Shown here one piece after another: positions 41,395 through 45,572 of a stretch of DNA of 64,000 bases (position 1 is the first letter of the stretch; each line of letters opens with the position of its first letter). The position numbers and the translations under genes are program-made. The stretch covers positions 154,027 through 218,026 of the forward strand of contig JABHTJ010000002.1 in assembly GCA_018697295.1 (NCBI GenBank), read 5' to 3'. The notes beneath the pieces are model-generated. The model worked only from the letters and a program-made list of their open reading frames with translations. It had not been told where the DNA came from and ran no database searches. This DNA comes from an archaeon (GTDB taxonomy: Archaea > Nanobdellota > Nanobdellia > Pacearchaeales > GW2011-AR1).

Positions 41395-41727
41395 TTATTC
41401 GTTTGATTGAGCGTCTTCGATAGCTTCTGCGTCTGCCATTGGAGCTTCTGATGATTCTCCTCTTGGAGCTCGGTCATCGTCTCGTGGAGTCATTGGACGA
41501 GCTTCGTTAACATTTAATGCTCTTCCTTCGATTTCCTTTTGATCCATATCGGCCATTGCCTTTTTAGCTGAGTCTTCATCGTTGATTGTTACAAATCCAA
41601 ATCCTTTTGATCTTTTAGAAAATTTGTCTACAATTACGTTTGCTTCATCAACTCCGTAGCTTTCGAATAATGCCGCTAGTGCTTTATCATCAATACTCCA
41701 GGCTAAATTACCTACATATAATTTCAT
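41395..41727 (-). CDS. RRM-domain RNA-binding protein
   Basis: KLYVGNLAWSIDDKALAALFESYG (RNP2), SKGFGFVTI (RNP1). Confidence 0.9.
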   Translation of the reverse strand: MKLYVGNLAWSIDDKALAALFESYGVDEANVIVDKFSKRSKGFGFVTINDEDSAKKAMADMDQKEIEGRALNVNEARPMTPRDDDRAPRGESSEAPMADAEAIEDAQSNE

Positions 41728-41898
41728 ATTTATTTATCCTCCCGTGATTTAATTGTAAATTGCATTCTTAGAAACATTCCTTATATCCTTGAATTTCTTA
41801 CTGATTTTGATTATTTAAAGGTTTGTAATTAGTTGGCTTTGTGTAAAAAGTCTAGTTAATGACTCACTTTATACACAAAAATCTCAAGAATATATAAT

Positions 41899-42102
41899 TT
41901 AGGCATATAATTTTTTTAATTTTCCATTATAATTAATTCTTATATGAAAATGTATCTGGTTACGATTATCTATCGCCTTCTCGGCAGTTTCTTCGTCCGG
42001 GAAGGTTAATTCAGCTTTTAATTTGAAGGACTCATAAGAGTTTAATTGGAAAGGTATTGAAAGAATATAAAGAAATGGATTTTTTGCATGAAAGAAGTGC
42101 AA
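41899..42102 (-). CDS. Small ORF inside the mobile element (67 aa; weak Pcc1-like N-terminal segment LKAELTFPDEETAEKAI)
   Basis: ORF track; divergent from and overlapping the HEPN-like ORF start. Confidence 0.3.
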   Translation of the reverse strand: MHFFHAKNPFLYILSIPFQLNSYESFKLKAELTFPDEETAEKAIDNRNQIHFHIRINYNGKLKKLYA

Positions 42103-42506
42103 TGATAATAAAAAAGAGGCTAGCAGTGGTTGAATTTGTTCACGGGTTAGAATTAATTCTCAAAGCAATTCTAATAAGAAAAGGTTATTGTATCTATAAA
42201 TTCAAGAACAATAAGATATTCAAGAATAATGAAAAAATTGAAAGACTTGTATCCTCTGATAGGACTATAGAGCTAGAAGGTGTCATAAAATTCTTTAAGA
42301 AAGAATATCCAGAGCTTTCTTTTAATCTAGTTGATAAGTTGAGAGTTCTTAGAAATCAGATTACTCACAAAGGCACGGAAATAAGTGAAAAGAAAAGGGA
42401 TTATTTTATTGGTGCCATAAATTGCTTAATTGAGGTTTATGAAAAAGAAGATATAAGAAATAGAAAATTCCTTGGAATTATTAGGCAGGCAAAATTAGAT
42501 ATTTGA
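42075..42506 (+). CDS. HEPN-domain-like protein (passenger of the mobile element)
   Basis: FVHGLELILKAILIRKGY (E..LK helix) and LRVLRNQITHKG (R-x4-H motif); track start 42057, alternative 42075. Confidence 0.6.
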   Translation: MDFLHERSAMIIKKRLAVVEFVHGLELILKAILIRKGYCIYKFKNNKIFKNNEKIERLVSSDRTIELEGVIKFFKKEYPELSFNLVDKLRVLRNQITHKGTEISEKKRDYFIGAINCLIEVYEKEDIRNRKFLGIIRQAKLDI

Positions 42507-42543
42507 CTTTATACACAGAAGCCACTTAATCCACAAAGCCTAA

Positions 42544-43656
42544 TTAGTTAAATTGCAGTATGATTCCTATGATAAATGCAAGAGTTAATAGGATTATGAT
42601 TGGTGTGTTGATGAAAACCTTTATTTCAGGTTTTCTTTGTCCTTTTTTCTCCTCTTTTGCTCCTTTATTGATTAGCAGAATTAAAACTCCAGTTATTCCT
42701 GTCGAAATCACTCCTGCGATTCCAAGAATCGAAGAAAATCCTAACAAATTGAATTTTTGGATTATGATGTATAGAATTAGTGGCATTAAGGAGGTGAATA
42801 TGAATGTTTTTCTCTTTGAGAAGTTAAGGTCGAAAAGACAGCTATCTCTTAGGGAAAATGAAAGTACGAAATAGGATGTGAGCATGGTGAATATTCCGAG
42901 AATTATTATGATTGGTCCAAAAGAGAGCGTTGCGACTTCGGTTACGCTTTTTCCAAGGACTCCGACAAAGGTTGCCGTGAATATTGTGTAGAGAATGACT
43001 GGAATTGATAGTCCGATGAAAATTGCTTTTTTGAAGTTTTTCTCTTGACCTTTTATTTCGAGACGTAGTTCTGGGATTGCCGTGAAGCCAAGTAATGCAA
43101 ATAATATTACTCCTATTGGAAATGTGAAATTATTTGGCGGGATTGTTGTAAGATTTGCTGGATTAATGTTTTGGAGGTGGTAAATAAATAATCCGAGAAT
43201 GATTGCGATGATTGCGATGACGCCATATGTTTCAACTTTTTTGAGGCTCTTTAATCCTTCTCGTAAGAGTAACGTCATGACAAGCCAGAATAAGAATCCA
43301 AGAAATAGTGGGTTGATGTTTCCTGGAAGAAGCTGGGAAAAACTTTGACCTTCTCCGATTAGGTATGCGATTAGTGCAGAATAAACTCCAAAGATTACTG
43401 TTAGAAACATTATTTTTTCTCCCCAAGGTCCTAGGTATATTTTTGCATAACCTGTGAGTTGGTGTTTTGATTTTGTTCTTAGAGTTACTTCTGCAAGAGA
43501 AAAATTAATGAAAAGCATGACAATGGAGAGAATGATGAGCCAGAAGATTCCGACGAGAAAACCTGATTTTGCGAAAACAAATGGAAGACCAAGAATTCCT
43601 GCACCGATAACTGCACCTGAGAGTGTGAATGTTGTTGCCCAGAATTTTTTATTCAT
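42544..43656 (-). CDS. Amino-acid permease (aromatic amino acid / AAAP-like)
   Basis: TFTLSGAVIGAGILGLPFVFAKSGF; multi-TM. Confidence 0.82.
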   Translation of the reverse strand: MNKKFWATTFTLSGAVIGAGILGLPFVFAKSGFLVGIFWLIILSIVMLFINFSLAEVTLRTKSKHQLTGYAKIYLGPWGEKIMFLTVIFGVYSALIAYLIGEGQSFSQLLPGNINPLFLGFLFWLVMTLLLREGLKSLKKVETYGVIAIIAIILGLFIYHLQNINPANLTTIPPNNFTFPIGVILFALLGFTAIPELRLEIKGQEKNFKKAIFIGLSIPVILYTIFTATFVGVLGKSVTEVATLSFGPIIIILGIFTMLTSYFVLSFSLRDSCLFDLNFSKRKTFIFTSLMPLILYIIIQKFNLLGFSSILGIAGVISTGITGVLILLINKGAKEEKKGQRKPEIKVFINTPIIILLTLAFIIGIILQFN

Positions 43657-43766: not shown

Positions 43767-45572
43767 ATGGTAGAAATTGTAGTAAATGATAACTTTAACG
43801 AAGCAGGTGAAGCTAACTTATTCGAAGATATTGGTAATGGGAAATTTGAGTCTTCTGATTTATTTAAACTTAGAATGGATGTAGATGAACTAGTTGAGGA
43901 TTCGGAAATTAATGAACTTTTATCTTATGGGAGTTTTTCTAAAAACTTGGCGTACGATTTGCCTTATCAGAGGTCTGGTGCGATTAAACTTTTGCGAGAT
44001 TTTAATATGAGTGCTCTTTTGGCTGATGAGGTTGGACTTGGGAAAACTATTACGACAGGAATGGCGATTAAGGAGGGAATTTATCGTGGGTTTTTGAAAA
44101 AGATTGTTATTTTAACTCCTCCAAGTTTGGTTGATCAATGGGTGATTGAACTTCGAGATAAATTTGGGTTAGAGTTTAATATTATTGAGTCTGCCGAGGA
44201 TTGGAATAAATTTGATTTTGCTATTGCGTCAATTGATCGTGTGAAGATTTTTGACAAAGTTACTCGTGGATTCCGGCATAAAAGTGCACATTCTGTTTTG
44301 TGGGATTTGGTGATTGTTGATGAGGCTCATAAATTAAAAGAAAAAAATACGGTTCGTTGGAAATTTGTAGATCGGCTGCAAAAAAAGCGGTTTTTGCTCT
44401 TGACAGCGACGCCATTTCAAAATGATTTGATTGAACTTTACAATCTTTTACATTTGCTTAAGCGTGGTCACTTGGGAACAATAAAGGAATTTCGGCAAAA
44501 ATTCTTATACCGAGGAAATAGTCGTCATCCTCTTAATCCCCTTGACTTGAAAAAAAAATTAGAAGAAGTTATGGTTCGGCGTCGACGTGATGAAACTGGA
44601 ATTGATTACAAGGCTCGTGTTCCAAAAATTGTTACTGTTGAACTTAGCAAAACTGAGAAGATGATTTATGATAATACTGTTCGATTGTTAAAGGAGAATT
44701 ATTTTCGTGCAGATGGTCGGGAAATTAATGCCCTCTTGATCGTGTTTGCAATTTTGCCAAAGATTACGAGTTCATCTGCTTCGGCTAAAGAGAGTTTGCA
44801 AAGAATTATTGATACTGAAACTTACCATGAAATTACAAAGACGTTTGCGCAAGGTATACTTGATGATTATGCAACTGTTGAACGCGATTCGAAAATTGAA
44901 AAATTGGTTGAGTTGATTGAAGAAATTATTTCTCGCAAAAATGAAGATGGAAGTAAATCAGACGAGAAGATTTTAATTTATACTCGGCATCCAACCACAC
45001 TTCGCTATATTGTTGAAAAGCTCAAGCCATTTAATTTGAAAATTATTGAATTTATGGGTGGGCTTGATAGAGAAGAAAAATCGCGAAGGATAGAATCATT
45101 TAAACGAGGTGAAGCAGATATTATGATCTCGACAGATACTGGGGCGGAAGGACTTAATTTTCAGTTTTGTCGGAATTTAATTAATTATGATTTGCCTTGG
45201 AATCCGATGTCAGTTGAACAGCGAATTGGTCGCCTTGATAGGATTGGTCAGAATAGGGATATGTACATTTATTCGTTTGCGACGAAGGGAACGATGGAAG
45301 AACATGTAGTTGACCTGATAATAAATAAGATGTGTTGTGTTGGGCTTGTGATTGGTGAGTTGCCGATTATTTTATTTAATCTTGGACTTGATGGCGAGGG
45401 AAAATCTGGAAGAAATAAAATTGAAGAGAAGTTGATGGCGTCGTTTATCGAAGGGAAAGGGAACTTAGAATTTTTTGCTCGAAACGTAAATGAAATTGCT
45501 GCAGAGATTAGTTTAGGCATGAAAGATTATGAAAATGATAAAGTTAGCAATAAGAAATTTTTTGATGAATAA
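43767..45572 (+). CDS. SNF2/RapA-like superfamily 2 helicase
   Basis: LADEVGLGKTITTGMAIKE (Walker A), VIVDEAHKLKE (DEAH), LLLTATPFQND, MISTDTGAEGLNFQFCRNLINYDLPWNPMSVEQRIGRLDRIGQ. Confidence 0.92.
   Translation: MVEIVVNDNFNEAGEANLFEDIGNGKFESSDLFKLRMDVDELVEDSEINELLSYGSFSKNLAYDLPYQRSGAIKLLRDFNMSALLADEVGLGKTITTGMAIKEGIYRGFLKKIVILTPPSLVDQWVIELRDKFGLEFNIIESAEDWNKFDFAIASIDRVKIFDKVTRGFRHKSAHSVLWDLVIVDEAHKLKEKNTVRWKFVDRLQKKRFLLLTATPFQNDLIELYNLLHLLKRGHLGTIKEFRQKFLYRGNSRHPLNPLDLKKKLEEVMVRRRRDETGIDYKARVPKIVTVELSKTEKMIYDNTVRLLKENYFRADGREINALLIVFAILPKITSSSASAKESLQRIIDTETYHEITKTFAQGILDDYATVERDSKIEKLVELIEEIISRKNEDGSKSDEKILIYTRHPTTLRYIVEKLKPFNLKIIEFMGGLDREEKSRRIESFKRGEADIMISTDTGAEGLNFQFCRNLINYDLPWNPMSVEQRIGRLDRIGQNRDMYIYSFATKGTMEEHVVDLIINKMCCVGLVIGELPIILFNLGLDGEGKSGRNKIEEKLMASFIEGKGNLEFFARNVNEIAAEISLGMKDYENDKVSNKKFFDE

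Follow-up and report, generated by a model that had tools for sequence, protein, structure and literature searches.

How a 706-bp stretch of DNA with a single HEPN-like gene came to lie between a permease gene and an RRM protein gene in the genome of an archaeon, probably a Pacearchaeota-type DPANN member, what moved it there, and what its passenger does are the questions raised by this locus. The window, i.e. the whole stretch of DNA that was analysed, comprises 64,000 nucleotides of a genome of 0.73 Mb (85% complete), in which the element is single-copy. The locus reads TAATTAGTT / GGCTTTGTG...CACAAAGCC / TAATTAGTT, with the element proper at 41835-42540. Its 9-bp terminal inverted repeats (TIRs) GGCTTTGTG (41835-41843 and 42532-42540) are identical, as are the two copies of the 9-bp target duplication TAATTAGTT (41826-41834 and 42541-42549), confirming the coordinates given in the first-pass annotation. 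The TIR match extends to 14/17 positions (GGCTTTGTGTAAAAAGT / GGCTTTGTGGATTAAGT). Inner repeats, absent from that annotation, are also present at 41866-41878 (inverted) and at 42506-42518 (direct), and the element is oriented with its B end on the left and its A end on the right (both end types are described below). The parts of the locus are the following:

41395..41727, minus strand: flanking RRM protein gene (Pfam RRM_1, 2.9e-17), adjoining the permease gene in six congeneric genomes
41826..41834, no strand: left target duplication TAATTAGTT, identical to 42541-42549
41835..41851, plus strand: B end, outer 17-bp terminal repeat GGCTTTGTGTAAAAAGT
41866..41878, minus strand: B end, inner repeat, inverted, at offset +31 counted from the end, as in 15/15 elements that combine one A with one B end
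42057..42506, plus strand: HEPN-like gene, 149 aa (TTG 42057) or 143 aa (ATG 42075); Pfam DUF3644 below cut-off, weak PADLOC matches
42351..42368, plus strand: RNQITH, an Rx4H motif as in HEPN ribonucleases (motif definition PMC3710099); its R and H are R93 and H98 in the numbering of the 143-aa form
42506..42518, minus strand: A end, inner repeat at offset +22, oriented like the outer repeat and overlapping the HEPN stop codon in the final base of that codon
42524..42540, minus strand: A end, outer 17-bp terminal repeat GGCTTTGTGGATTAAGT
42541..42549, no strand: right target duplication, within which the flanking permease gene has its stop codon
42544..43656, minus strand: flanking amino-acid permease gene (Pfam Trp_Tyr_perm, 3.8e-27)

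An Rfam scan of 41600-42800 gave no match. Inside the element, a minus-strand ORF of 67 aa (41899-42102) overlaps the start of the HEPN ORF; scanned as a candidate partner, it matched RRM_1 alone (E=0.12) and could be either a degraded remnant or a partner not recognised as such. Beyond the permease gene lies a 601-aa SNF2-like helicase gene (43767-45572, plus strand), called by eye from its DEVGLGKT and DEAH motifs.

Repeats of this length may coincide in AT-rich intergenic DNA. The 9+9 arrangement of TIR and duplication has one occurrence in the real window, and 60 dinucleotide shuffles likewise yielded one (p about 0.02 alone), so that the pattern by itself is only moderately unlikely. Chance is nevertheless out of the question because of the extended TIR, the inner repeats, the matching family of ends, and the empty orthologous sites. 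In six congeneric genomes, the permease and RRM genes are adjacent, ~113-168 bp apart, without the element; these sites were located via the permease, orthologues of which were present in 15 other congeneric genomes. Taking out 715 bp (the element plus one duplication) leaves a spacer of 101 bp in the window. With empty sites and an identical end architecture across independent assemblies, the coincidence of repeats is refuted and its probability is practically nil. The window element is a lineage-specific insertion directly behind the permease gene. The first-pass annotation had called this insertion recent, which holds insofar as it is absent from the congeners; it is recent in relative terms only, the permeases of the congeners without the insertion being ~58-66% identical to that of the window.

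The same annotation had proposed a search of relatives for the TIR, and a matching family of ends was indeed present. The TIR pattern was matched in 76/191 genomes of the same taxonomic family, with much lower numbers for reversed-pattern controls. Elements were recovered in fetched regions by pairing inverted ends with 9-bp flanking repeats, yielding sizes of 66, 66, 120, 120, 129, 197, 276, 911, 1028, 1204, 1337, and 3672 bp as well as larger elements of 4026, 4063, 6311, 6400, 7877, and 12,439 bp. Their duplications are mostly perfect, a few showing one mismatch. Two types of ends were discerned: a family A end consists of a 17-bp TIR followed, from +22, by the inner repeat CTGTKTAWAAAGT in direct orientation, a family B end of a 17-bp TIR and an inverted copy of CTGTKTAWAAAGT at +31. 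These asymmetric offsets are found in all 15 elements that combine one A with one B end, a count that leaves out some small or degenerate elements that were not typable and includes L070 and L116, both without a matching duplication. A second end class, GGCTTTGTTGAAAAAGT, is frequent in genera g29 and g48 of the same taxonomic family and may represent a separate IS5-type group.

An exact search for the A-end motif in 85,488 species genomes returned 23 stretches, all titled archaeal except one unclassified 'bacterium' bin. They stem from Pacearchaeota, Woesearchaeota, Nanoarchaeota, Micrarchaeota, Hadesarchaea, Methanosarcinaceae (ANME3 in one contig name), and Nitrososphaerota. Genomes of Methanosarcinaceae harbor up to 35 TIR-pattern matches each; in some of their elements, the ends, of 48, 66 or 86 bp, are palindromic throughout. 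Tandem-like end arrays with a period near 1.88 kb were observed on Methanosarcinaceae (HMMV, HMMV2) contigs (L140, 17-3308; L132/L195, 55-1938). No description of the family was found in the open-access papers searched; this IS5-like archaeal transposon family is apparently undescribed.

Which enzyme could move such elements is indicated by the autonomous members. Their transposase of ~410-420 aa (449 aa in L075) shows a DDE_Tnp_1 domain and a sub-threshold match to an N-terminal SWIM zinc finger; the best NCBIfam model is IS5_2 (E=1.8e-36 and 9.7e-41), with scores just under or at the cut-off. For IS903B, ends of the sequence GGCTTTGTTGAATAAATC and a direct repeat of 9 bp are given in PMC10569121. 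The family B consensus agrees with the IS903B ends at 16/18 positions, the window ends at 14/18 each, and the window element has the GGCTTTGT-type terminal repeat together with the 9-bp target duplication of the IS5/IS903 group. The IS5/IS903 relationship suggested from the window alone is thus borne out by the transposase of the same-genus partner, which matches IS5_2, and by the B consensus. Similar GG-TCTGT ends had raised the option of an IS6 element, which was dropped, since the duplication here is 9 bp and the transposase scores as IS5; IS6 produces 8-bp duplications. Neither the sequence nor the ORF list of the window element contains an IS5-type DDE transposase gene, as had been noted before; therefore, the element is IS5-related and non-autonomous, not an IS.

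An autonomous IS5-family partner had also been postulated. Two SWIM-DDE transposase copies, each inside a complete element with matching ends, were found in a genome of the same genus (G011), and none was detected in the assembled part (85% complete) of the window's own genome. Related transposases occur in 57/382 genomes of the phylum, while no close SWIM-DDE transposase was found in the Methanosarcinaceae genomes with family ends. Relatives of the enzyme with 61% and 42% identity are encoded on two viral contigs from IMG/VR (L187 and L188), a possible route between hosts.

The sole sizeable ORF of the element encodes 149 aa if TTG 42057 is the start codon and 143 aa if translation begins at ATG 42075; its stop codon is at 42504-42506. 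Its product matches Pfam DUF3644 with E=1.2e-5 and 25.4 bits, 2.2 bits below the curated cut-off of 27.6 bits, and weakly matches PADLOC models for CARF-HEPN, DUF3644, and Csx1. DUF3644 is a recognised HEPN family, and HEPN motifs follow the rule Rx4-6H with a polar residue after the arginine (PMC3710099). RNQITH fits Rx4H with such a polar residue; together with the sub-threshold DUF3644 match, it lends support to the HEPN-like ORF proposed earlier. Weak matches to a superantigen-like protein (NCBIfam, PDB) were put down to chance. The single-sequence AlphaFold model (pLDDT 42) is useless for judging the fold; that of a second HEPN cargo (L130, same element as L074) has a pLDDT of 36. A search for homologues among viral contigs, plasmids, and phages, as well as in 382 genomes of the phylum, yielded nothing beyond weak HEPN-region matches. 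Archaeal relatives with related HEPN regions (L005, L007, L210) adjoin nucleotidyltransferase-type genes, as judged by eye; neither an MNT nucleotidyltransferase nor another antitoxin partner is present within the window element or between its flanking genes. By analogy with its protein family, the passenger is a candidate HEPN RNase with a putative toxic or defence role.

Genes of defence type recur among the cargo of the family. They were found in 10/17 duplication-bearing elements with genes and in 0/20 flanking genes (Fisher p = 6e-5; stricter count 8/17, p = 6e-4). The 17 elements have 9-bp duplications with 0-1 mismatch and internal genes, which excludes L070, without a matching duplication. 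Since the sets are small and hand-sorted, and whole elements are set against single genes, the defence bias is to be read as a lead, not as a census. The ten cargoes are:

Window element: HEPN
L064: HerA/NurA/TOTE-type primase
L067: restriction-modification and PemK-like toxin
L068: restriction-modification
L074: HEPN (weak match)
L107: type II methylase
L117: Eco57I-type
L193: AlbA_2/HATPase, matching a PADLOC pAgo model
L196: SIR2
L200 (953-3470, G522:C27): RiboL-PSP-HEPN adjoining a GmrSD-N gene, without transposase

HEPN genes are thus found in three family elements (the window element, L074 with a weak match, and L200), and the two genes of L200 are a possible defence pair. The remaining seven (L066, L073, L075, L083, L113, L203, and L204) are without defence-type cargo. 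The identified ones among the 20 flanking genes are mostly housekeeping genes (proteasome, RNA polymerase, TFIIB, NAD kinase, eIF2 alpha), the others being unrecognised. The 12.4-kb element L075 (3481-15919, G246:C17) harbors its own transposase, a perfect 9-bp duplication, and a metabolic-looking gene block devoid of defence genes; therefore, the cargo of the family is not confined to defence.

The window element is thus most probably a non-autonomous mobile insertion cassette (MIC) of an archaeal IS5/IS903-related family, moved in trans and carrying a candidate HEPN RNase as passenger. It combines IS-like ends, an internal passenger gene, and no transposase gene, the make-up of a MIC. The first-pass interpretation was mostly right; its term 'MITE-like' does not apply, as strict MITEs are short, non-coding, and multicopy, whereas this single-copy element of 706 bp bears a full gene. 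A SWIM-DDE transposase supplied in trans would presumably recognise the two asymmetric ends, each composed of a 17-bp outer repeat and an inner repeat in direct (A) or inverted (B) orientation, and insert the element via a 9-bp staggered cut. With its intact Rx4H motif, the passenger would most likely act as a ribonuclease, either as a toxin or in defence of the abortive-infection type, and owe its spread to a transposon family in which defence genes are frequent. Against this reading stand the single-copy state of the element, so that the mobility of the window copy is presumed, the lack of a detected transposase of this type in its genome (85% complete), the sub-threshold HEPN match, and the missing antitoxin partner.

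An ordinary deletion derivative would look similar: an IS5-like element could have lost its transposase and gained an adjacent ORF by chance, the HEPN-like gene being incidental and devoid of toxin or defence function. The sub-threshold HEPN match and the genes without defence annotation in several family elements (L066, L073, L075, L083) are compatible with such an origin, but the ORF is intact, has a full Rx4H motif, and ends exactly at the A-end repeat. HEPN-type genes moreover recur in L074 (weak) and L200, and the defence bias of the cargo exceeds that of the flanks, which renders this origin unlikely. Still less is to be said for an HEPN protein that serves the element itself, e.g. by regulating transposase mRNA or transposition, instead of host defence. 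It is the sole gene of the element and abuts the A end; however, most family elements, autonomous ones included, lack an HEPN gene and carry unrelated cargo, making this role very improbable.

A further alternative concerns the smallest members of the family. The inner repeats flank the cargo as direct repeats, and arithmetic on the sequences of the 15 A/B elements reveals that a crossover between them would reduce 15/15 to exactly 66 bp. Elements of 66 bp that have a single, shared inner repeat and 9-bp duplications exist in several genera. In 382 phylum genomes, five 66-bp elements with such a repeat were detected, and none in the reversed control; two have perfect 9-bp duplications, one a duplication with one mismatch, one with two, and one none. 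In contigs of Micrarchaeota and Nitrososphaerota, perfect duplications flank versions of 86 bp. The count leaves out Methanosarcinaceae solos of 48/66/86 bp without a duplication of their own, because these are often palindromic ends of larger elements. The 66- and 86-bp elements could be minimal transposons, deletion scars, or shells after cargo exchange. Under the last option, cargo would be gained and lost by recombination at the direct inner repeats, with the 66-bp element as the empty form. This is considered quite improbable because no circles, cassette arrays or recombinase were seen, nor was an integrase; other cargo-less sizes exist (120, 129, 197, and 276 bp), and a 66-bp element could equally be the smallest transposable unit or the product of a repeat-mediated deletion. 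A modular archaeal defence-gene shuttle, in which an IS5-derived shell of ~66-86 bp has its cargo swapped at the inner 13-bp repeats, is a similarly doubtful reading. If true, the genes mobilised by one transposase across archaeal phyla would form an open-ended pool of HEPN, restriction, SIR2, and GmrSD-type genes, to which cassettes with a single gene and no transposase, like the window element, would also belong. Fixed asymmetric ends and 66-bp shells also offer testable models of minimal transposon ends.

Compared with known systems, the family is closest in its ends to the IS903 group of the IS5 family (IS903B, ISVal1), sharing the terminal-repeat start GGCTTTGT and, with IS903B, the 9-bp direct repeat (PMC10569121; PMC5633605); its transposase likewise scores best against an NCBIfam IS5 model. 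It differs by the N-terminal SWIM-like zinc finger of the transposase, by inner repeats at fixed offsets that render the ends asymmetric, by sizes reaching 12.4 kb with cargo, and by its occurrence in archaea. MICs harbor passenger genes between IS-like ends without a transposase, transporter ISs do so with one, and a cognate transposase can move them (PMC3129680). The family resembles both in these respects, while it is archaeal, has IS5-type ends and an HEPN passenger, and ranges from 66-bp shells to multi-gene elements. A parallel to the window gene is the stand-alone HEPN protein with Rx4-6H encoded on an integron cassette (PDB 3jrt; PMC3710099), although neither an integron integrase nor an attC site was seen in the window element, and the 66-bp crossover arithmetic alone hints at an integron-like exchange. 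HEPN-MNT toxin-antitoxin pairs (PMC7641770) have an RNase toxin, to which the window protein would correspond, whereas the window element lacks the nucleotidyltransferase partner.

According to a 2026 survey, restriction-modification and CRISPR-Cas are underrepresented in DPANN archaea, compact systems are enriched, and archaeal-specific systems are wanted (PMC12988326). A delimitable family with often defence-like cargo offers a route to such systems, as its short end signature is searchable and the content between the ends can be read; it also supplies concrete HEPN candidates for assay. Of greater weight than the window copy are the family as such, the architecture of its ends, and the defence bias of its cargo. 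Tn7-like transposons likewise carry cargo rich in restriction, sirtuin-like, and HEPN genes and have several repeated sites per end, and homologues of their transposase are reported to be absent from archaea (PMC8649781). In contrast to these, the family described here has just one transposase, of IS5 type, and its 9-bp duplications lie at varied sites; it may carry the defence-shuttle role known from Tn7-like elements over to an IS5-type element.
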